Source: Acinetobacter sp. TR3 (GTDB lineage: Bacteria; Pseudomonadota; Gammaproteobacteria; Pseudomonadales; Moraxellaceae). From it: 64,000 nucleotides of DNA. The position numbers and the translations under genes are program-made. Numbering within the stretch: position 1 is the stretch's first letter; each line of letters begins with the position of its first letter. The stretch spans positions 868,001 through 932,000 of the forward strand of contig NZ_CP114264.1 of the NCBI RefSeq assembly GCF_027105055.1, in the 5' to 3' direction. Of this stretch, positions 22,889 through 34,975 are shown one piece after another. Below the pieces are notes generated by a model that was given only the letters and a program-made list of their open reading frames with translations, was not told where the DNA came from and searched no databases.

Positions 22889-23839
22889 ATGGAACAACTT
22901 AATCCTTCCGATTTAAAAGCAATTCTTCATTCGAAGCGTGCAAATGTTTATTACCTTGAACATGCACGTGTCATGCAAAAAGATGGTCGAGTTTTATATC
23001 TCACAGAAGCCAAAAATGAAAACCAATATTGGAATATTCCAATCGCCAATACCACCGTCATTTTATTGGGTACAGGCACATCCATTACCCAAGCGGCAAT
23101 GCGGATGCTCGCCAGTGCAGGAGTATTGGTCGGTTTTACAGGCGGCGGTAGAACGCCTTTATTTATGGGGAGCGAAATTGAATGGATGATGCCACAAAGT
23201 GAATATCGCCCTACGGAATATATGCAGGGGTGGATGAGCTTTTGGTTTGATGAGGCGAAACGTTTAGAGGTCGCAAAACAATTTCAGTTCGCTCGTATCG
23301 AATTTATCCGTAAAGTTTGGGCTAAAGATCGAGATTTACAAGCAGAAGGTTTTTATCTGGATGACCAAGATATCACCCAAGCGTTAACAGGATTTGAAAA
23401 GAAAATTCCGCATCAAAGCAAAGTTGGTGATTTGTTGCTTGCTGAAGCACAAATGACCAAGCAACTTTATAAGATTACGGCCACACGTTGCAAACTTAGT
23501 TTTGAGCGCAATCCTGAGCAGGGAGATTTAGCCAATAACTTTTTGAATCATGGTAATTATCTCGCCTATGGTTTAGCCGCAACCACGCTTTGGGTGTTAG
23601 GTATTTCTCATTCATTTGCAGTGATGCACGGTAAAACTCGGCGTGGTGCTTTGGTGTTTGATATAGCGGATTTAATTAAGGATGCAGTAGTTTTACCTTG
23701 GGCATTTATTTGTGCCAAAGAGGGTCTGGCTGAGCAAGAGTTTAGACAGCAGTTACTACAAAAATTTACTGAATATCGCTGTTTGGATTGGATGTTTGAT
23801 CAGGTGAAAGAAAAATCAATTATAAGTAATACATTATAG
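22889..23839 (+). CDS. cas1: Type I-F CRISPR-associated endonuclease Cas1
   Basis: The 316-residue protein is Cas1 of the I-F subtype. It begins SDLKAILHSKRANVYYLEH. The catalytic part includes FLNHGNYLAYGLAATTLWVLG, ISHSFAVMHGKTRRGALVFDIADLIKD with the metal-binding His and Asp, and EGLAEQEFRQQLL. Cas1 pairs with the Cas2 domain of Cas2-3 to integrate new spacers at the leader end. It is the first gene of the cas cluster but is split from cas2-3 by 449 bp that contain a DUF2188 gene and a crRNA-like element. Its last codons overlap a predicted Cascade target site. Confidence 0.97.
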   Translation: MEQLNPSDLKAILHSKRANVYYLEHARVMQKDGRVLYLTEAKNENQYWNIPIANTTVILLGTGTSITQAAMRMLASAGVLVGFTGGGRTPLFMGSEIEWMMPQSEYRPTEYMQGWMSFWFDEAKRLEVAKQFQFARIEFIRKVWAKDRDLQAEGFYLDDQDITQALTGFEKKIPHQSKVGDLLLAEAQMTKQLYKITATRCKLSFERNPEQGDLANNFLNHGNYLAYGLAATTLWVLGISHSFAVMHGKTRRGALVFDIADLIKDAVVLPWAFICAKEGLAEQEFRQQLLQKFTEYRCLDWMFDQVKEKSIISNTL

Positions 23840-23840
23840 G
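23821..23840 (-). promoter_or_regulatory. Predicted Cascade target site (PAM plus 18-nt partial protospacer) for the crRNA-like element
   Basis: On the minus strand the sequence is CC (PAM, 23840-23839) followed by TATAATGTATTACTTATA (23838 down to 23821). The guide at 24171-24188 matches 15 of these 18 positions; mismatches are at guide positions 6, 12 and 16. Positions 6 and 12 are those that flip out of the type I guide-target duplex and need not match. The site overlaps the cas1 stop codon and its PAM side lies 1 bp from the -35 box of the DUF2188 promoter. The match was found by hand; its meaning is inference. Confidence 0.72.
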
Positions 23841-23841
23841 T

Positions 23842-23870
23842 TTGATTTTTAAAATTGGTTGTTTTATACT
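23842..23870 (+). promoter_or_regulatory. Sigma-70 promoter of the DUF2188 gene
   Basis: TTGATT (23842-23847) and TATACT (23865-23870) are separated by 17 bp, a near-consensus arrangement. Start of transcription would be near 23877, about 36 nt before the DUF2188 ATG. It is the first promoter downstream of cas1 and could also contribute transcription to cas2-3 and csy1-4. Confidence 0.7.
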
Positions 23871-23912: not shown

Positions 23913-24140
23913 ATGTCTACAAAATCAACACATGTTGTACCGAATAAAGATGGTGGGTGGGATGTTAAACAAAGTGGAGGAAAACGGTCTTCAGGACATT
24001 TTGATACTAAAAAAGAAGCTACTGATAGGGCTAGAAAGCTTAGCCAAAATCAAAATACTGAATTAGTCATTCACAATAAAGATGGCAAGATTTCACAAAA
24101 AGACAGTCATGGAAATGATACATGTCCACCTGAGGGTTAA
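23913..24140 (+). CDS. DUF2188 protein inside the cas locus; candidate CreT-like product
   Basis: The 75-residue protein (THVVPNKDGGWDVKQSGGKR, then SGHFDTKKEATDRARKLS) matches the DUF2188 family, small basic proteins of unknown function. It has a strong ribosome site (GAGAGG, 6 nt spacing) and its own near-consensus promoter. DUF2188 is not a standard Cas protein, and its position between cas1 and cas2-3 interrupts the usual I-F gene order. Just upstream is a site matching the guide of a crRNA-like element that lies just downstream. By analogy with CRISPR-regulated toxin-antitoxin units this gene could be the repressed toxin. Toxicity is not shown by the sequence; an anti-CRISPR, regulator or passenger role is also possible. 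Confidence 0.8.
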   Translation: MSTKSTHVVPNKDGGWDVKQSGGKRSSGHFDTKKEATDRARKLSQNQNTELVIHNKDGKISQKDSHGNDTCPPEG

Positions 24141-24160
24141 ATCTGCTTAATTTTGAAAGT

Positions 24161-24224
24161 AGCTTAGAAATATAAAGTATTCCTTTTATAAGGTGAGTTT
24201 ACTGCCATATAGGCAGCTTAATTA
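24161..24224 (+). ncRNA. crRNA-like guide element (degenerate mini-CRISPR, CreA/CreR-like)
   Basis: AGCTTAGAAA at 24161-24170 equals the last 10 nt of the array repeat and contains the complete 8-nt crRNA 5' handle (CTTAGAAA, 24163-24170). A 26-nt guide follows (24171-24196). Then 24197-24224 matches the array repeat at 23 of 28 positions and keeps the Cas6f hairpin CTGCC-ATATA-GGCAG (24202-24216) with the G after which Cas6f cuts. The processed product would be 8+26+20 = 54 nt, one 6-nt segment shorter than the 60-nt array crRNAs. The rest of the upstream repeat is eroded. Sequence facts are direct; transcription and function are inferred. Confidence 0.75.
24164..24192 (+). promoter_or_regulatory. 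Weak candidate promoter for cas2-3 inside the crRNA-like element
   Basis: TTAGAA (24164-24169), 17 bp, then TATAAG (24187-24192). The -35 is poor. If used, the cas2-3 mRNA would start near 24199, at the very base of the Cas6f hairpin. Transcription from the DUF2188 promoter is the alternative. Confidence 0.35.
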
Positions 24225-24288
24225 AAATTTTATGTTGAATTATTTACGGATGGTTCAACACAACTTATATCAGATGAGGAAAATAATA

Positions 24289-27200
24289 ATGATCGTCACC
24301 TTTATCTCTCAGTGTGAAAAGAAAGCGATTCCTCGAACTCGCCGTGTACTCGATGCTTTTGCGGATCGAATTGGTGACAATACATGGCAAACAGTCATTA
24401 CCGAAGATGGTTTGATTGCTGTTAAAAAATTATTGAGAAAGACTGTCACCAAAAGTACGGCAGTGAGTTGTCACTGGATACGTGGTCGTCGTAGAAGTGA
24501 GTTGCTGTGGGTCGTTGGAAATCGGAATAAGTTTAATACGCAGGGGATTGTGCCTGTGAATACCACGAAGAAAAAATTAGATCAAAATAAATGGGAAAAT
24601 GACTGGCATTATTTACCTCTGATTAAAGCGTTGGTTGCCGTGTCCGCATTACTTCATGATTGGGGCAAAGCAACGCTTTTATTTCAGCAGAAACTCCTCA
24701 GTAAAAATAACCAATTCAAAGGCGATCCTTTACGGCATGAATGGATTTCTTGTCTTTTGCTCAATGCATTGGTTCAATCATCGGGCGATATTGAAACTGA
24801 TGAAGCATGGCTCAATTTATTTATCAGTCAAAGTTGGAATGAAGAGGTACTCAAACAAACGATTATAAAAAACTCAGATCAATCAAAAGTTTTAGATCAA
24901 CTTCCACCCTTAGCGCAGTTGGTCGCATGGTTGATCGTTTCACATCATCGGTTACCCAATTTAAAAAGTGAAGAAGAATATAAGAAATATGGCAGTGAAG
25001 ATGTTTCATATATAAATAACTTATTTGAATTGATCAAAGCAGATTGGGGTTACCAAAATAAATTTGAGGAAAAAGAATATCAACAACGCCTTAAATTGTG
25101 TTTTGAGTTTAAACAAGGTTTGTTGACTCAGTCATCTGAATGGAATAAACAAATTAAAAAATGGTCAACACGTTTATTACAGGAGTCTCAAGCATCTCAA
25201 CAGATATTTGTGGATGGTAGTTGGCGAGTGATTTTACATCATGCCAGATTGTGTCTTATGTTAGGTGATCACTATTATTCATCTTGTGAGGCGGATAAAA
25301 CGTGGAAAACCAATTTATCACTCGTTGCAAATACTGACCCAAAAACGAAACAAGCCAAACAATTTTTAGATGAACATTTAGTACGGGTCAGTGACAATGC
25401 GATGCGAGTCGCTCAGTCTTTAAGTCGCTTAGCCGATGACATGGAACCCGCTTATGATATTCAAAAATTAAAAAAGAAAAGTCCTCAAGGTTTTGAATGG
25501 CAAGATCAGGCAGTGAAAGGAATACAACAATTTATTCAAAAAAATGAGGGGATGGAGAAACAAGGTTGGTTTATTGTCAATATGGCGAGTACGGGTAAGG
25601 GTAAAACGATTGCTAATGCTAAAATTATGCAAGCTCTATCCAAAGATGGGCAATCATTACGCTATATCTTAGCTTTAGGGCTCAGAACATTAACTTTACA
25701 AACAGGCGATTCATATCGTCATGATATTGGTTTGAGCAATGATGAGCTTGCTGTTTTAATTGGTTCAAAAGTTGTTCAGGAATTACATCATCAAAATATA
25801 AAAAATACTCAGCCAGATGAAGTCATTATTGAGGAAATAGGTTCAGAGTCATTAGAAGAACTATTAGACAATGAACTTGATTATGAGGCTATGCCTCAAG
25901 CAGAGTTTATGAATGCTTTATTTCCAAAGCATCAGGAACAACGTAATAAAGCTTTTTTATATAAACCTGTTTTAGCTTGTACCATTGACCATATGATGGC
26001 AGCCACTGAAACCAAACGTGGTGGAAAATATATTTTACCCAGTTTAAGGCTTTCTTCGTCTGATTTAGTCATTGATGAAGTTGATGATTTTAACGGTCAA
26101 GACTTAATTGCGATTGCTCGACTGGTACATTTGGCAGGGATGCTAGGGCGAAAAGTGATGATTTCCTCGGCAACCATTCCACCTGCATTAGCTGAGGGTT
26201 TCTTTAATGCGTATCAGCAAGGTTGGTCATTGTATTGTGCGTTTAAGAAACTTAAAAATACCAATATTGCTGCAATGTGGGTCGATGAATTTAAAACCAA
26301 GACTCAAATGATTGATGCAAGAAAATCAAAAGAAACAATACAGCAATATAAGAATGTACATGATCAATTTATTGAACTTCGTACAACTGCATTAAGTCAG
26401 CAAATCGTAAAACATAGAGCTTACATTATAGATTGTGCTGATCTTGTTGCAGAAAAAGAAGTACAACGTTTAGATCAAAGTTTACAGTCGCAATATTTTG
26501 AACGAATTAAGCAGAATGCTGAAAAATTGCATCTAAATCATTACAGCATCGATATTAAGACAGGCAAAAAAGTTTCTTTTGGTGTGGTACGCATAGCGAA
26601 TATTTCGCCATGTGTCGCGCTCACTCAATATCTATTAAATGCCGAGTGGTCACAAGGAATTGCACCTCGTGTCATGGCATATCATAGTCGTCAAGTTTTG
26701 CTATTACGTAGTGAGCAGGAGCGACATTTAGATCAGGTTTTGAAGCGCAAAGAAAAAGTAGGAGAGCAGGCGACTGCATTTTCAGAAAATGTGATTCGAC
26801 AGCATTTAGATTCAACAGAGCATGAACATGTTATTTTTATCTTGGTTGCTACGCCTGTAGAGGAAGTTGGTCGAGATCATGATTTTGATTGGGCAATTGT
26901 AGAGCCATCCTCTTATCGCTCTATCATCCAACTTGCTGGGCGGGTATTACGGCATCGAAAACTGGAACAGGATATTCAAAAACCGAATATTGCTTTAATG
27001 CAATATAATTTGAAAGGAGTACGAAAGGCGAAAGTCGCATTTGAAAAGCCAGGTTTTGAAATGAATAATGATAAATTCAAATTACAGACCAAAGATCTAA
27101 AAGAATTACTCGATATTTCAAATGTTGATTTTAATATTAATGCCGTTCCACGTATTCAGGCAAATCAACCCTTACAAGCTATAAAAAAATTGGCAGATCT

Positions 27201-27663
27201 TGAACATGCTGTCATGGCAGATGCTTTAACTTCATATAATAAAGTAGGTGCGAAGCCCCTGAATGCGTGGTTGACTCAAAACTGGTTTTTAACGGCTTTA
27301 CCTCAGAGATTTACGCCTTTTAGACAAAGTTCACCTAATATTCAGCTTTTTGCAGTGTTAAAAAATCATAAGCTTGTATTTTGTGTAAAAGATGATTTTG
27401 GAAAATATATTGATCGTAATGGCTTTTATAATATTCATCACATTCAATTAAATGAATTAGAGCAACAAAGATTATGGTTAAATCGAAATTATTACGACAT
27501 TTTGTGTCGTTTTGCTCTTGATAAAGTGAGTGGAAATGAGGATATTGAAGAAAAGATAGAAATATTATCAGAACGCTATGGGGAAATTATGTTACCTGAA
27601 TATGATGAGAATAAAAGACTTGTTTATTCAGAACAATTTGGACTTGTAGTTTTAGATAAATAA
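24289..27663 (+). CDS. cas3: Type I-F Cas2-Cas3 fusion (nuclease-helicase)
   Basis: The protein has 1124 residues. An N-terminal Cas2-like domain (MIVTFISQCEKKAIPRTRRVLDAF, about residues 1-95) is followed by an HD nuclease domain with HD at 123-124 (LLHDWGKA) and further histidines. The superfamily 2 helicase has STGKGKT near 433-440 and the DEVD box near 596-599, then a C-terminal helicase half (EEVGRDHDFDWAIVEPSS, QLAGRVLRHRK). It is recruited by Csy complex to degrade target DNA and takes part in adaptation with Cas1. I start it at 24289, not 24232, because ATGAGGA gives a ribosome site there and the Cas2 domain begins MIVTF. Confidence 0.97.
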   Translation: MIVTFISQCEKKAIPRTRRVLDAFADRIGDNTWQTVITEDGLIAVKKLLRKTVTKSTAVSCHWIRGRRRSELLWVVGNRNKFNTQGIVPVNTTKKKLDQNKWENDWHYLPLIKALVAVSALLHDWGKATLLFQQKLLSKNNQFKGDPLRHEWISCLLLNALVQSSGDIETDEAWLNLFISQSWNEEVLKQTIIKNSDQSKVLDQLPPLAQLVAWLIVSHHRLPNLKSEEEYKKYGSEDVSYINNLFELIKADWGYQNKFEEKEYQQRLKLCFEFKQGLLTQSSEWNKQIKKWSTRLLQESQASQQIFVDGSWRVILHHARLCLMLGDHYYSSCEADKTWKTNLSLVANTDPKTKQAKQFLDEHLVRVSDNAMRVAQSLSRLADDMEPAYDIQKLKKKSPQGFEWQDQAVKGIQQFIQKNEGMEKQGWFIVNMASTGKGKTIANAKIMQALSKDGQSLRYILALGLRTLTLQTGDSYRHDIGLSNDELAVLIGSKVVQELHHQNIKNTQPDEVIIEEIGSESLEELLDNELDYEAMPQAEFMNALFPKHQEQRNKAFLYKPVLACTIDHMMAATETKRGGKYILPSLRLSSSDLVIDEVDDFNGQDLIAIARLVHLAGMLGRKVMISSATIPPALAEGFFNAYQQGWSLYCAFKKLKNTNIAAMWVDEFKTKTQMIDARKSKETIQQYKNVHDQFIELRTTALSQQIVKHRAYIIDCADLVAEKEVQRLDQSLQSQYFERIKQNAEKLHLNHYSIDIKTGKKVSFGVVRIANISPCVALTQYLLNAEWSQGIAPRVMAYHSRQVLLLRSEQERHLDQVLKRKEKVGEQATAFSENVIRQHLDSTEHEHVIFILVATPVEEVGRDHDFDWAIVEPSSYRSIIQLAGRVLRHRKLEQDIQKPNIALMQYNLKGVRKAKVAFEKPGFEMNNDKFKLQTKDLKELLDISNVDFNINAVPRIQANQPLQAIKKLADLEHAVMADALTSYNKVGAKPLNAWLTQNWFLTALPQRFTPFRQSSPNIQLFAVLKNHKLVFCVKDDFGKYIDRNGFYNIHHIQLNELEQQRLWLNRNYYDILCRFALDKVSGNEDIEEKIEILSERYGEIMLPEYDENKRLVYSEQFGLVVLDK

Positions 27664-27677
27664 TAAATGGGGGAAAT

Positions 27678-28919
27678 ATGGCAGAAAGTATTTATGCTTT
27701 TTTGAATGAGCGAAAAGAACTTTGGTTAAAAGATCGGATAAAAAAGGCGGAAAATGAAACGGTAATAGCTGAATTACAACAACAAGCAAATGATAAATTT
27801 AGTTTAAATGAGTGGTTACCTGACGCAGCAAAGCGAGTTACACAGCTTTCTATGGTCAGTCACCCAAGTAAATTCAGTCACCCAAGTGCAAAAACTTCAA
27901 GCGTGATTGCTAAAGTAGAACAATCTAATGATGGCTATTTACGAAGTGGGAATGTGGATTATTCATTAGATGTATTTGGCAATGCTGCTGCAATGGATGT
28001 ATTTAAGTTTTTGTCCTTACCATTAAATGAAAATTTCACGGTATTGGACGGTTTTGAACAGCAAGATCAAGCATTGAAAACTCTAATTACTCATGCAAAA
28101 TTAAACTTTGATACTTTAAGTACAGAATTTCTAAAAATTAAAGCAACAGATCATTCTGTTAAAACAGATCATTTGGTGAAACAAGTTTATTTTCCAGTTC
28201 GTGAAGCACAATATCATTTACTTTCTATTTTAACACCATCAGGATTAATCACTCGACTAAAACAATCTATTGATGCGATACGTTTTTCTGAAGATACTAA
28301 ACAAGCTAAAGAGGCACGTAAGAAAAATGAGCATCATGAAATAGGCTATTCCGATATTTTTGATTTAACTGTAACGGGTTATGGTGGAACTCAACCACAA
28401 AATGTTAGTGTTTTAAATAGTCAAAATGCAGGACGAGCTTATTTATTATCAACTTGTCCACCTAAATTTGAAAACCGTAATATTAAATTACCCAGTCAAG
28501 ATTTTTTTCAACAGTGTCTATATTGGAAAAGATTTGGTAGTGAATTTGAAAGCTTGCAGAAATATGTCACTGGAATTAATAATCAGCATACACGTAAAAA
28601 AATTAAAAAAATTTTACGTCAAATGGTTGGAGATATTTTATTTATTGCCTTTTGTATACGTAAAAATGAAAAAGGATGGTCCCAAAAGGAGCATTATCAA
28701 TCCTTAGCTCTAAAGCAAAAAATATGGCTTGACGATGCATATTTAGATGTAAGAGAAACTGAAAGTGAATGGCGAGATGAAATTGCTCGAAGAACTGCAA
28801 AATGGATTTTAGACAGCTTTGAAGACTTTTATGGTTCTAAGCTATTTGGTAGTCCTGAAATTATCGAGTTAAAAGGTATTGTATTTGAAGCACTGGATGA
28901 AGATAAGGAGTTTTTTTAA
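27678..28919 (+). CDS. csy1: Type I-F Cascade large subunit Csy1 (Cas8f)
   Basis: The 413-residue protein follows cas2-3 by 14 nt, with a GGGGGA ribosome site. Recognisable I-F Csy1 features include the helical N-terminus, HPSKFSHPSAK, VYFPVREAQYHLLSILTPSGL and the C-terminal TAKWILDSFEDFYG. In the Csy complex it recognises the double-stranded PAM (CC in I-F) with Csy2 and caps the crRNA 5' handle. Its stop codon overlaps the csy2 start by one base. Confidence 0.95.
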   Translation: MAESIYAFLNERKELWLKDRIKKAENETVIAELQQQANDKFSLNEWLPDAAKRVTQLSMVSHPSKFSHPSAKTSSVIAKVEQSNDGYLRSGNVDYSLDVFGNAAAMDVFKFLSLPLNENFTVLDGFEQQDQALKTLITHAKLNFDTLSTEFLKIKATDHSVKTDHLVKQVYFPVREAQYHLLSILTPSGLITRLKQSIDAIRFSEDTKQAKEARKKNEHHEIGYSDIFDLTVTGYGGTQPQNVSVLNSQNAGRAYLLSTCPPKFENRNIKLPSQDFFQQCLYWKRFGSEFESLQKYVTGINNQHTRKKIKKILRQMVGDILFIAFCIRKNEKGWSQKEHYQSLALKQKIWLDDAYLDVRETESEWRDEIARRTAKWILDSFEDFYGSKLFGSPEIIELKGIVFEALDEDKEFF

Positions 28920-29806
28920 TGCGCCATTTTTTATTGATTCCTCATTTAAAACTTCACAATGCCAATGCAATGAGTAGTCCATATACGATTGGATTTCCTG
29001 CAATGACTGCGTGGCTCGGTGCTGTTCATGCCTTACAACGCCAGTTACAGAGCAAAGCTTGTGATGTAATTTTAACGAAAATGGCAATTAGTTGTCATGA
29101 ATTTAATTTGCAAACTTATAAAGGGCAAGGGGATTTTGTTCATTCCATTATAGGTACTGCAAACCCCTTAGATAAAGATGGTAGTCGTCCTGCTTTTATT
29201 GAAGAGGCACGTTGTCATTTAGAAGTTTCACTTTTAATTGAAGTTGAAAATCTAAACATAAAAAAGAGAGAGCGACTTTTAGAACTTATTCCTGATCTCG
29301 TGTGCAGTATGAAATTTGCAAGTGGAGATGTTTTAGCAGTGAAAGATTATCAAATCATAGATTTTGATGATGAATATGAAAATCAAGATAAAGAGTTAAG
29401 ACCTATCTTAAATAAACTCATGCTAGGACACGTAATCATTGAGCGCCGTGATCTTGTTATAGAAAGTATGAATGAGGGTAAAGATGCACTAGATGCGGTT
29501 TTAGATTATTTGAAGGTCACCCATAGTTCTACTATAGATGAAAATGACAAAGTGACATGGGTATCAAAGCGTAAAGCTCAAGGTTGGCTTGTGCCTATTG
29601 CTGTTGGTTTTCAGGGAATTTCTGAACTTGGAGAAGCAAAAAATCAACGTGATGCCAATACGCCGCATCGATTTGCAGAAAGTGTTTTAACGTTAGGTGA
29701 ATTTGTGATGCCGTATCGTATAGAAAACATTGATCAACTGTTATGGAAGTATCATTTTGATTTAGAAAATAATTTATACCTTTGTCAAAACCAAACAACA
29801 ACTTAA
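28919..29806 (+). CDS. csy2: Type I-F Cascade subunit Csy2 (Cas5f)
   Basis: The 295-residue protein begins HFLLIPHLKLHNANAMSSPYTIGFPAMTAWLGAVHALQ, a typical Csy2 N-terminus with the RAMP fold. KAQGWLVPIAVGFQGISEL is a second conserved block. It forms a heterodimer with Csy1 at the crRNA 5' end. The TAATG junction with csy1 suggests translational coupling. Confidence 0.95.
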   Translation: MRHFLLIPHLKLHNANAMSSPYTIGFPAMTAWLGAVHALQRQLQSKACDVILTKMAISCHEFNLQTYKGQGDFVHSIIGTANPLDKDGSRPAFIEEARCHLEVSLLIEVENLNIKKRERLLELIPDLVCSMKFASGDVLAVKDYQIIDFDDEYENQDKELRPILNKLMLGHVIIERRDLVIESMNEGKDALDAVLDYLKVTHSSTIDENDKVTWVSKRKAQGWLVPIAVGFQGISELGEAKNQRDANTPHRFAESVLTLGEFVMPYRIENIDQLLWKYHFDLENNLYLCQNQTTT

Positions 29807-29832
29807 TTTTATATTGAAAAAAGGAAAAACTC

Positions 29833-30846
29833 ATGGCTAAAAATGAAAAAGCAATTGCAAGTGTACTGGCATTTGAAAAGAAACTTGTTCCATCTGATGG
29901 TTATTTTTACGGAACAACTTGGATTAATCGTAATGAACAAACAGCATTAAAGCTGATTGAAAAATCTGTACGAGGAACGATTTCAAACCGTTTAAAACCT
30001 GCCGTTGCAGGTGACCCAATAAAATTGAATGCCGAGGTTGAAAAAGCCAATTTACAAACTGTAGATGCATGTGCTTTGGGAGAAAATCAGGACACGTTAA
30101 AAGTTTCATTTACGTTGAAAGTACTTTGTGGAGTTGAAAACCCATCTGCTTGTAATAACGAAATATTTTTAAATTCTTATCAAGCTGTAGCAAAAAACTA
30201 TATTGAACAATATGGTTTTACTGAGCTTGCTAAACGCTACGCGCTCAATATCGCGAATGCTCGGTTTTTATGGCGTAACCGTGTTGGAGCTGAAAAAGTA
30301 GAAGTTGTTGTTACAATTAATGATCAACCAGCGGTCATTTTTAATGCTTTGCAATATCCATTGCATGACTTTGATCAGATTGATGAGAAAGTACAAAATT
30401 TAGCAAACCAAATTGCACATGCTTTAAAAGGTGAAACAGCTTATTTATTAATTAAAGTTGAAGCTTATGCTTTAGTTGGTAAAGCACAAGAAGTCTATCC
30501 AAGTGAAGAATTGGTATTGGATAAAGGAAAAGGCAATAAGAGTAAAATTCTTTATCAAGTGAATGATGTTGCTGCAATGCATTCTCAAAAAATCGGTAAT
30601 GCACTACGTACAATTGATACTTGGTATCCTGAATTTGATGAGAAAAAAACAGCAATTGCGATAGAGCCGTATGGTGCAGTTACAAATCTTGGAAAAGCAT
30701 ATAGAACTCCGAAAGATAAAGTTGATTTTTTTAATTTATTTGATAAGTACGCTTTAGGTGAGTCATTGGCTAATACTGAACAAGAACATTATGTGATGGC
30801 AGTTTTAGTTCGTGGTGGAGTATTTGGTCAAAGTGGAAAGGAGTAA
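29833..30846 (+). CDS. csy3: Type I-F Cascade backbone subunit Csy3 (Cas7f)
   Basis: The 337-residue protein contains IASVLAFEKKLVPSDGYFYG, ARFLWRNRVGAEKVEV and VLVRGGVFGQSGKE, matching Csy3. Several copies (six on a 32-nt guide) coat the crRNA, each covering six bases and flipping out one. Ribosome site AAAGGA precedes the ATG. Confidence 0.96.
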   Translation: MAKNEKAIASVLAFEKKLVPSDGYFYGTTWINRNEQTALKLIEKSVRGTISNRLKPAVAGDPIKLNAEVEKANLQTVDACALGENQDTLKVSFTLKVLCGVENPSACNNEIFLNSYQAVAKNYIEQYGFTELAKRYALNIANARFLWRNRVGAEKVEVVVTINDQPAVIFNALQYPLHDFDQIDEKVQNLANQIAHALKGETAYLLIKVEAYALVGKAQEVYPSEELVLDKGKGNKSKILYQVNDVAAMHSQKIGNALRTIDTWYPEFDEKKTAIAIEPYGAVTNLGKAYRTPKDKVDFFNLFDKYALGESLANTEQEHYVMAVLVRGGVFGQSGKE

Positions 30847-30849
30847 TCA

Positions 30850-31464
30850 ATGGATTATTACCAAGAAATTACTTTGATTGATCAAGCTGAGATTTCACCT
30901 TATTTCCTTTGGTCAAAAATCTATATGCAGTTACATTTTGCTTTAGTGGAAATGAAAGATCAGTACAATCAAGTGCCAATAGGAATTTCTTTTCCTGATT
31001 ATGTGTATGAAACAAAGGAAAATAAAAGATCTAAAGTTGGTTTAGGTGGGAAACTACGTATTTTTGCTATATCTGAAATAGATTTACAAAAACTAGATAT
31101 CCGAAAATGGCTAGATCGTTTATTAGATTACACACATATCACGAGTGTACGTCCTGTCCCTGAAAGGAGAATCACAGGCTATGCCATTTATAGGCGTAAA
31201 CAGGTGAAAACTAATCCACACCGTTTGGCTCGTCACCGTGTGAAGCGTGGTGATATTGGTTTTGATGAAGCATTGGCTCGTTATAGTAATGTTGTAACAA
31301 CAACGGATTTACCTTATATCCAATTGCAAAGTTTAAGTACTTCTGATGAACAAGATAAGAGATGGTTTAAGTTGTTTATTGAAAAGAAATCTGCTGAAAA
31401 ATCTGAAACTCAGGTTTTTAGTACTTATGGTTTAAGTTCACAGAGTTCTGTACCCGAATTTTAA
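30850..31464 (+). CDS. csy4: Type I-F crRNA endoribonuclease Csy4 (Cas6f)
   Basis: The 204-residue protein has the catalytic histidine at residue 29, the same number as in the Pseudomonas enzyme, and the arginine-rich segment ERRITGYAIYRRKQ plus RLARHRVKRG that grips the repeat hairpin. It cuts repeat RNA after the hairpin to leave the 8-nt handle CTTAGAAA and stays bound to the 3' hairpin. It starts 3 nt after csy3. Its stop codon lies inside one arm of a 10-bp inverted repeat of the CRISPR leader. Confidence 0.96.
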   Translation: MDYYQEITLIDQAEISPYFLWSKIYMQLHFALVEMKDQYNQVPIGISFPDYVYETKENKRSKVGLGGKLRIFAISEIDLQKLDIRKWLDRLLDYTHITSVRPVPERRITGYAIYRRKQVKTNPHRLARHRVKRGDIGFDEALARYSNVVTTTDLPYIQLQSLSTSDEQDKRWFKLFIEKKSAEKSETQVFSTYGLSSQSSVPEF

Positions 31465-31595: not shown

Positions 31596-33845
31596 GTTCA
31601 CTGCCATGTAGGCAGCTTAGAAAGTTTGCCATGTTGTCAACCTATGTTAAAAATCGTTCACTGCCATGTAGGCAGCTTAGAAATTGCTGCGATGCAAGAT
31701 TTAAGTGCTCTAACTGTTCACTGCCATGTAGGCAGCTTAGAAATTGTCTAATGAACGGCGTTGTGCTGATAGCAAGTTCACTGCCATGTAGGCAGCTTAG
31801 AAAGCCACGCATCATGGCAAGCAATGCTCTATTCGGTTCACTGCCATGTAGGCAGCTTAGAAATTTATGCTTTCCAAAAGTCAGATGTGTTGGGAGTTCA
31901 CTGCCATGTAGGCAGCTTAGAAATATTGGCATACAAAGCCCTAGTCTAAATACAGGTTCACTGCCATGTAGGCAGCTTAGAAAAATTTGCGGACGAAACG
32001 CATCACTACATGCTTGTTCACTGCCATGTAGGCAGCTTAGAAATAAGTCAATCAAGGCATATGTAAGTGATTCAAGTTCACTGCCATGTAGGCAGCTTAG
32101 AAAATTGTGAAACTGAAACTCTGGCTTAGTTCTAAGTTCACTGCCATGTAGGCAGCTTAGAAAATGATGTCTAATACGTCCATCTGGTCGATTTCGTTCA
32201 CTGCCATGTAGGCAGCTTAGAAAAGTCAAAATACTGTCTTTACTGAAATATTGATGTTCACTGCCATGTAGGCAGCTTAGAAATGCAACAAAGTATTAAT
32301 CGTGCCCTCATCAAAGTTCACTGCCATGTAGGCAGCTTAGAAAAAGCAAGCCAATAACGATTAGAAACGGCGCAAGTTCACTGCCATGTAGGCAGCTTAG
32401 AAATATCAATACCTCAATACTACGCACAATTTATAGTTCACTGCCATGTAGGCAGCTTAGAAAAACCAGCGACAACACAATCTGTCACTAAATCAGTTCA
32501 CTGCCATGTAGGCAGCTTAGAAATTTTTAAAAGCTTTATAAGCTGCTGTCTTGATGTTCACTGCCATGTAGGCAGCTTAGAAATATTAAATCGCACGTAA
32601 AAATTTGTATGTTCCGTTCACTGCCATGTAGGCAGCTTAGAAATTGTGATCTTATCGCCTGATACTGGCTCAGCTGTTCACTGCCATGTAGGCAGCTTAG
32701 AAATATAACATCAATATAACCTGTTTGACCACAATGTTCACTGCCATGTAGGCAGCTTAGAAAACCAAGTTTCAAAATTCATCGTAACACCTCTAGTTCA
32801 CTGCCATGTAGGCAGCTTAGAAAGTGTTTTTGTTGTTTGTGTTTTATCATTGGTAGTTCACTGCCATGTAGGCAGCTTAGAAAAAAGAAAAAGCGAAAAC
32901 GTGTAGAAATAATATGTTCACTGCCATGTAGGCAGCTTAGAAATGCATAAAAAGCATCTTCACATGCGTCTTTATGTTCACTGCCATGTAGGCAGCTTAG
33001 AAAAAATCAGCCTTTAAAATCTTTGCTTTTGGGTCGTTCACTGCCATGTAGGCAGCTTAGAAATATGATATTTCATATTTAGTGAGAGAAGTATAGTTCA
33101 CTGCCATGTAGGCAGCTTAGAAACGTCAGTAGTTGTGACATATAACTGACCATTTGTTCACTGCCATGTAGGCAGCTTAGAAAAACATGCAAGTCTCTAA
33201 ACGTTCCTCTGTCAAGTTCACTGCCATGTAGGCAGCTTAGAAATTGGCAAGCTGCTGCATCAACTCGTACAGTGAGTTCACTGCCATGTAGGCAGCTTAG
33301 AAAGCTTAATTCGTCTGACATACTGATCATTGACCGTTCACTGCCATGTAGGCAGCTTAGAAAGAGAATCATCTGAACCGCAACAGATAAAGCATGTTCA
33401 CTGCCATGTAGGCAGCTTAGAAAAAACCGAGCTAAACGTCAAAACAATAAAAGATGTTCACTGCCATGTAGGCAGCTTAGAAATCAAAAAGATGGCGATG
33501 TGGGAAACACACCGCGTTCACTGCCATGTAGGCAGCTTAGAAATCAATCCAATCAATAGTTACTGTATTATCAACGGTTCACTGCCATGTAGGCAGCTTA
33601 GAAAAATGTAACCTGACAAAATTGGTGTAACAAGTTGTTCACTGCCATGTAGGCAGCTTAGAAAGATTGATGGCCAACCTGTGATTTTAAAAATCAGTTC
33701 ACTGCCATGTAGGCAGCTTAGAAAATCAAATGAATTACGTTTTTCTGTTTGAGTTGGTTCACTGCCATGTAGGCAGCTTAGAAACAATCAAAAAAATCAG
33801 TAACTTTTGACCAAAAAGTTAACTGCCATGTAGGCAGCTTATAAA
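31596..33845 (+). CRISPR. Type I-F CRISPR array, 38 repeats and 37 spacers
   Basis: The 28-nt repeat begins GTTCACTGCC, has loop ATGTA, and ends GGCAGCTTAGAAA. Repeats 1-33 recur every 60 bp from 31596 to 33516; repeats 34-37 start at 33577, 33637, 33697 and 33757; repeat 38 at 33818-33845 is degenerate (changes at positions 4 and 25). All others appear identical. Spacers are 32 nt except spacer 33 (33544-33576) and spacer 37 (33785-33817), which are 33 nt. No spacer is repeated. The size and uniform repeats suggest an active array. Confidence 0.99.
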
Positions 33846-33967: not shown

Positions 33968-34975
33968 GTGAAAAAATATCCTATTATTCTAAATATTCTG
34001 TTATTTAGTTTCATACAAAGCGTATGGGCGAATATGAGTCCACAAGCTCGTATTATCAATGGCAATACGACTACAGAAGCACAAATCCCGTGGCAAGTTG
34101 CAGTTGTACTTAACCCTTTAAAACCTTACCAATCCTACCATTGCTCAGGAAGTCTAGTTGCAGATCATTGGGTGGTGACAGCAGCACATTGTATTGAACC
34201 ACTCGAAAAACAAAACAGTGATTATTATATTTTGATTGGTGCACAAAATTTGCAAAGTATTCAAGCAGGACAAATTATTAAAGTTAAAAAGGGGTATATA
34301 CATGAGAAATATAATAATCGTATTTATGATAACGATATTGCACTATTAGAATTAGAAGGTAATGTGGATTTTATAAAGTGTGGTGTAAATTGCCAAACGA
34401 TTGACATTATGAATCCCGTCTTAGAACAACAAAATGCATTGATTGTAAATATGGTACAGATTGCAGGGTGGGGCGTATTAGAAGATTGTGACAATACTCA
34501 ATCTCAGACTTGTAAAGATTATGAAGAAAAAAGCATTAGAAACCCTGCGCTGTATCCAACAACTTTAAGATATACCACGCTAAAATTAGCCAATTGTCTA
34601 TCTTCATCATCATTATATAGCGCGCAACAAATCACTCAGAATATGCTTTGTGCAGAATCACCGATGCAAGACAGTCTTACAGATGCTTGTTATGGTGATA
34701 GCGGTGCAGGTTTAACGATTAATAATTTAGAAAAACCATATTTGCTAGGTGTTGCGAGTTGGGGAATTGGTTGTGCCAAGGTTGGTTATCCTGGGGTTTA
34801 TACTCGAGTTGCGAACTATTCAGATTGGTTAAACGGTTATCTGCATCCAAGTACCGTTCCCGAACAAAAAAGTAGCCAAACAAACCAATCGGGTGGTGGA
34901 AGTGTCAGTGTGTTCATGATTATATTCTTAGTAATGTTGGCGATTGTACGTTGGCGCTTTATTAAAAGTGCTTAA
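33968..34975 (+). CDS. Trypsin-like serine protease with GlyGly-CTERM sorting tail
   Basis: A signal peptide (about residues 1-22, ending SVWA) precedes an S1 protease domain from RIINGNTT. The catalytic triad is His74 (TAAHC), Asp123 (DNDIALLE) and Ser245 (GDSGAG). Asp239, six residues before the serine, predicts cleavage after Arg or Lys. Several cysteines suggest disulfides. The C-terminus has GGGSVSVFMIIFLVMLAI then a basic end, the GlyGly-CTERM signal cut by rhombosortase after type II secretion. It starts with GTG at 33968 behind a GGGGA ribosome site. No rhombosortase lies nearby. Confidence 0.88.
   Translation: MKKYPIILNILLFSFIQSVWANMSPQARIINGNTTTEAQIPWQVAVVLNPLKPYQSYHCSGSLVADHWVVTAAHCIEPLEKQNSDYYILIGAQNLQSIQAGQIIKVKKGYIHEKYNNRIYDNDIALLELEGNVDFIKCGVNCQTIDIMNPVLEQQNALIVNMVQIAGWGVLEDCDNTQSQTCKDYEEKSIRNPALYPTTLRYTTLKLANCLSSSSLYSAQQITQNMLCAESPMQDSLTDACYGDSGAGLTINNLEKPYLLGVASWGIGCAKVGYPGVYTRVANYSDWLNGYLHPSTVPEQKSSQTNQSGGGSVSVFMIIFLVMLAIVRWRFIKSA

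Follow-up and report, generated by a model that had tools for sequence, protein, structure and literature searches.

The 64,000-nucleotide stretch of the Acinetobacter sp. TR3 genome analysed here (the window) carries a type I-F CRISPR-Cas system, with cas1, cas2/3, csy1 to csy4 and an array of I-F repeats, and the gap between its cas1 and cas3 genes holds a small gene of the DUF2188 family followed by a lone mini-CRISPR. The guide of this mini-CRISPR partly matches a site that is flanked by a CC protospacer-adjacent motif (PAM) and lies at the predicted promoter of the DUF2188 gene, and the pair formed by guide and site is kept in relatives. From sequence comparison, it is very probable that the guide directs the Csy complex to repress the DUF2188 promoter.

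The DUF2188 gene (23913..24140, plus strand) encodes a protein of 75 amino acids (Pfam PF09954, E 3.3e-24; PADLOC PDC-S16) and is the presumed controlled cargo. Behind it on the same strand come a degenerate repeat 1 (24143..24170), with a 6-bp stem and a 3' end, CTTAGAAA, identical to that of the array repeat; a 26-nt guide (24171..24196), which begins directly after CTTAGAAA, whose last base is 24170; and a degenerate repeat 2 (24197..24224), which has the 5-bp stem CTGCC/GGCAG of the array repeat and a degenerate 3' end. With its foldable stems and its intact 5' handle, the segment 24143-24224 is a CRISPR RNA (crRNA)-like unit of the CreA type. Aligned with the minus strand from 23838 downwards, the guide pairs at positions 1-5, 7-11, 13-15, 17 and 18, that is, at 15 of the 18 nucleotides scored (target site 23821..23838, minus strand), next to the CC at 23840-23839 of that strand; positions 6, 12 and 16 are mismatched, and past position 18 there are only scattered matches. 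The site overlaps the final bases of cas1 (22889..23839, plus strand; Pfam Cas_Cas1; PADLOC Cas1fv and Cas1f). A single base separates the PAM from a -35-like TTGATT (23842-23847), which is followed by a 17-nt spacer and a -10-like TATACT (23865-23870), the whole promoter-like site spanning 23842..23870 on the plus strand. The scan that gave this promoter found 4 such sites against a shuffle mean of 5.4, so the promoter is not significant by itself. A first-pass annotation of this DNA had described the match, the unpaired distal part of the guide and the single base before the -35 box, and all of these were confirmed, the match exactly; its claim that the mismatches fall at flipped-out guide positions held for 6 and 12 and failed for 16, which lies outside the 6/12/18 pattern described below.

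Such a pair might have arisen by chance, from the remains of a mini-array and an AT-rich site that has nothing to do with it. The sequence is AT-rich, and when the guide was permuted with its composition preserved (n = 20000), 218 permuted guides reached 15/18 somewhere in the window. Just 12 did so, however, within 1 kb of 24100; 14 of 15 matches outside positions 6, 12 and 18 were reached by 1 permuted guide within 1 kb and by 30 anywhere in the window. Of the window's 4132 CC sites, this one matches best, the runner-up pairing at 12/18. The pattern CCTATAANGTATTNCTT occurs in perfect form once in the whole genome (3.36 Mb), at the target site itself; when up to 2 mismatches are allowed, it is found at 13 places, including the guide, and its backward control at 19.

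Pairs of this kind recur among relatives. Two gap regions from each of 74 Moraxellaceae loci (148 regions; the sample excludes weaker Cas3 matches, of about 35% identity or less or confined to residues 1-97) were scanned for CC sites matched by a guide that follows a repeat-like handle. A handle with 7/8 bases was present in 102 regions, and a guide/CC-site pair of at least 14/18 in 32; none of the 148 yields such a pair when the targets are reversed. Where the handle is exact (25 distinct pairs), positions 1-5 are free of mismatches (0 of 125 cells), positions 6, 12 and 18 are mismatched in 37 of 75 cells (12, 14 and 11, respectively) and the ten others in 24 of 250; these cells are not independent, as the pairs are related to one another. 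Guide bases are flipped out at every sixth position in the Csy complex, and the pile-up of mismatches at 6, 12 and 18 fits this. The excess over the control, the periodicity of the mismatches and the retention of the pair in relatives make chance a very improbable explanation in the window; for the whole family of guide/site pairs, it is already refuted. The geometry of the promoter is shared as well: in 10/10 compared modules, at an equivalent offset from the PAM, the -35-like hexamer begins 0-1 nt past it and is followed by a 17-nt spacer and a -10-like box, with scores of 7-9 out of 12, whereas 7.3% of 439 control GG sites reach a score of 7. A different promoter-like site outscores the PAM-adjacent one in L019, and there are ties in L016, L021 and L148.

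A Cas3 match was found in 71 of 175 Acinetobacter genomes, and 22 loci are close (Cas3 identity of at least 75% over nearly the full length). At 14 of these, cas1 and cas3 touch (-4 to +5 nt) and there is no module; at the other 8, the gap measures 343-486 nt and contains a mini-CRISPR whose guide pairs at 15-17/18 with a CC site beside the end of cas1. The cargo is DUF2188 in 3 of the 8 modules (the window, G040 and G119) and a hydrophobic peptide open reading frame (ORF) of 36-42 residues in the other 5 (L011, L016, L021, L028 and L030); we take these peptides to resemble small membrane toxins. The ratio of nonsynonymous to synonymous substitution rates (dN/dS) between the peptide ORFs of L011 and L030 is ~0.26. 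The first-pass annotation had called beforehand for guide and target to be compared across relatives. In G040 and G119 the pair is retained at the equivalent place, with 16/18 each, and, judged from this comparison, the overall interpretation appears well supported. Between G040 and the window, guide and site have changed together at positions 15 and 18; the changes at 6 and 12 leave these positions unpaired. The DUF2188 copies of the window, G040 and G119 are under purifying selection (dN/dS ~0.1). A peptide module is present in G166 (L011), whose Cas3 is 95% identical to that of the window, and none in G122 (L012), at 90% identity; the cas1-cas3 gap therefore seems to be an exchangeable slot at which cassettes are swapped. 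A search of this gap found no DUF2188 in a further 8 loci of Acinetobacter (L032-L039), nor in 43 of another 44 Moraxellaceae loci with an upstream cas1 (L040-L043, L135-L174).

DUF2188 also occurs between cas3 and csy1, in two genomes of a second Moraxellaceae genus, g15 (G300, locus L136, and G338, locus L148), where the protein is 58-59% identical to that of the window. There, the mini-CRISPR lies on the strand opposite to DUF2188, and its guide pairs at 17 and 18 of 18 positions with a CC site upstream of the gene. This genus is likely Psychrobacter, since the sole plasmid record matching cas1-cas3 of L136 (99% covered, 78% identical) comes from a Psychrobacter sp. DUF2188 is thus found in both slots and both genera, with the module in either orientation, and has a separate guide in each case. 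The cas3-csy1 gap, already published for CreTA, houses 22 of the 31 distinct guide/site pairs.

The CreTA of Acinetobacter lies in the cas3-csy1 gap and has an RNA toxin (Wang et al. 2023, PMC10097628). Its type I-F CreA forms 17/20 pairs, with the 6th, 11th and 18th positions unpaired, and represses its target through Csy; the antitoxic effect requires Csy, not Cas3 (PMC10097628). The window module resembles the CreTA of the I-F strains Acinetobacter sp. WCHA45, LoGeW2-3 and ANC3789 in having, within a cas gap, a mini-CRISPR of two degenerate repeats whose short guide partly matches a CC-flanked site (in WCHA45, positions 6, 11 and 18 are unpaired); the need for Csy, and not for Cas3 or Cas1, is a further likeness, which is a prediction in our case (PMC10097628). 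It differs in its slot (cas1-cas3 instead of cas3-csy1), in its guide, which lies behind the gene on the same strand instead of diverging from the toxin, in its cargo, a 75-amino-acid protein gene instead of an RNA toxin with a 33-bp mini-ORF, and in its target site, upstream of the -35 box instead of downstream of the creT promoter (PMC10097628). In CrePA, a protein toxin (CreP) is paired with an RNA antitoxin (CreA), and a crRNA-like RNA and a CRISPR effector likewise repress the promoter of a protein gene; CreP, however, is typically a KilA-N protein that blocks division, while the cargo here is DUF2188 or a peptide of 36-42 residues (review PMC12737573). As Pfam gives DUF2188 only, and not KilA-N, for the cargo, the module was not filed as CrePA. 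The type I-E CreTA of Citrobacter rodentium resembles the module in the position of its site, which falls in the upstream portion of the promoter (there, over the UP element), and in having a small ORF as cargo, but it uses the I-E Cascade, another PAM, the cas3-casA gap and a guide on the opposite strand (PMC12055562). Mechanistically, the module thus falls among the known CreTA/CrePA-like systems, and the idea itself is not new, whereas the slot, the same-strand layout and the cargo differ. No report of the cas1-cas3 slot, the same-strand layout or a DUF2188 cargo was found in the literature searched, outside which key papers lie; within that literature, slot and cargo look new.

CreR, known from types I-B, I-E and V-A, is similar in that a Cas-bound crRNA-like RNA partly matches a promoter, and different in that cas genes repress themselves without any cargo gene (PMC13131331). 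A self-control of this type could be imagined in the window: the promoter repressed by the guided complex would be one that serves cas3 and csy1-4 as well, with DUF2188 as passenger or helper, in a feedback loop between guide and Csy. CreR self-repression has been described in all three of these types (PMC13131331), DUF2188 and the guide share a strand with cas3 and, although the gene nearest downstream of the target is DUF2188, reading through into cas3 is possible, as the 12-bp hairpin between module and cas3 (24233..24260, plus strand) has no T-run in the window and is not listed by the terminator scan. Nevertheless, a hairpin of 12-15 bp follows repeat 2 and parts the module from cas3 in 8/8 cas1-cas3 modules (by eye, a clear T-run stands behind it in L013 only), the 14 of 22 close loci that have neither gap nor module argue that cas3 can do without this promoter, and DUF2188 and a guide are kept together in another gap, cas3-csy1. 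We consider this self-control unlikely.

We propose instead that the CreA-type unit just behind the DUF2188 gene is transcribed and processed by Csy4 (Cas6f), which would yield a guide RNA with CUUAGAAA at its 5' end and the stem of repeat 2. This RNA would lead the Csy complex to the CC-flanked site directly next to the predicted -35 box of the DUF2188 gene, and, since pairing ends after ~18 positions, we infer binding without cleavage, which would agree with what is published on CreA of Acinetobacter. RNA polymerase would then be occluded by the PAM end of the bound complex. A working Csy complex would thus keep DUF2188 silent, and loss of Csy or its inhibition, by an anti-CRISPR for example, would turn the gene on; the protein would be the likely effector of this guard and might slow growth or have another defensive action. 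We hold this guard model, taken as a whole, to be probable, while the odds are only slightly in favour of a guard-effector role for DUF2188 itself. A less probable reading than CreR-type self-control is that DUF2188 is not a toxin and acts on the CRISPR machinery, being made only when Csy is short and, for example, binding Csy or Cas1 as a brake, a booster or an anti-CRISPR decoy.

Several results weigh against the guard model. Target-only changes are frequent in pairwise counts within families, which repeat shared events and exclude L028, whose guide is different. At paired positions, the DUF2188 modules show 2 kept co-changes and 4 target-only changes, the peptide modules 10 kept, 3 guide-only and 7 target-only, and the second-genus pair 1 guide-only change; at positions 6, 12 and 18, the DUF2188 modules show 2 kept changes, 3 in which both sides changed without pairing, 1 guide-only and 1 target-only, and the peptide modules 4 target-only. 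When guides and sites were crossed, a site's own guide was best or tied in just 8/10 rows, and the window guide scores 16 on the G119 site against 15 on its own. Furthermore, DUF2188 homologues from outside Moraxellaceae do not have I-F genes as neighbours: such genes lie near DUF2188 in only 1 of 78 genome-contig loci, an Acinetobacter (none in the other 77), and in 1 of 20 loci of an order-level search, namely the window itself; a fold search with the DUF2188 model gave no informative match.

The metagenomic IMG/VR contig G348 (left end L044, right end L183) also bears on how harmful the release of DUF2188 would be. It carries a DUF2188 99% identical to that of the window and retains the target site, which would pair with the window guide at 16/18, and the -10 box. 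Exactly behind repeat 1, however, a phage-like element (L044 from 2438 onwards; L183 1-1500) replaces the guide and repeat 2, and at the other end cas3 follows without either; the contig is a virus record, and its phage-like genes were judged by eye. If G348 is a true lysogen, DUF2188 persists there without its guide, and its release may not be lethal; this retention after guide loss likewise counts against the model, in so far as it assumes strong lethality. The -35-like box of G348 has lost its TTG (TTTAAT, 3/6, against TTGATT, 4/6, in the window), a change that may lower DUF2188 expression and is expected if free expression costs something, although a single case decides nothing.

DUF2188 was found in 11 of 348 Moraxellaceae genomes; 5 of the 11 copies lie inside an I-F cas gap, and the other 6 are more than 1.5 kb away from any I-F cas gene. 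A weak twelfth candidate, in G082 (E 6.5e-5), is not near cas genes. Elsewhere the family is widespread, with 307 proteins matched. The structure model (mean predicted local distance difference test score, pLDDT, 79.9) has five strands and one helix. At the Photobacterium and Aliivibrio loci L059 and L062, the homologues stand amid repeated elements of ~110-135 nt, which to us look like integron gene cassettes.

Downstream of the module, on the plus strand, lie cas2/3 (24289..27663), csy1-csy4 (27678..31464), which are all open and whose complex is expected to carry the guide, and a CRISPR array of 37 repeats (Rfam; 31596..33784). Directly behind the array, 33968-34975 encodes a trypsin-like protease (Pfam PF00089) with a C-terminal hydrophobic tail. 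The PADLOC score of the window cas1 is higher for Cas1fv than for Cas1f, and several Acinetobacter genomes match only residues 1-97 of cas2/3, the Cas2 domain (24289-24579), at up to 90-95% identity and mostly within frames of 980-1010 amino acids; taken together, these two observations make it possible that I-F variants have exchanged parts where Cas2 meets Cas3. In another Moraxellaceae genome (G239), the 814-nt cas1-cas3 gap contains a Phd/YefM-PIN toxin-antitoxin pair (L043 4716-5400).

A broader reading, which we put forward tentatively and at somewhat less than even chances, is that the cas1-cas3 gap of the Acinetobacter I-F loci is a socket for exchangeable cassettes of guide, target and protein, and that a mobile DUF2188 has been brought under CRISPR-guided control at least twice (in Acinetobacter between cas1 and cas3, in the second genus between cas3 and csy1), as an effector of a new class, which anti-CRISPRs or mutations would release by disabling Csy. 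Guided control of DUF2188 would add a widespread protein family to the RNA toxins and KilA-N proteins of the CRISPR-guarded modules, and DUF2188 would gain its first testable role. The mismatch pattern of the 25 pairs would offer a natural data set on which guide positions Csy needs in order to bind stably without cutting, and further cargo could be sought in the cas1-cas3 slot.
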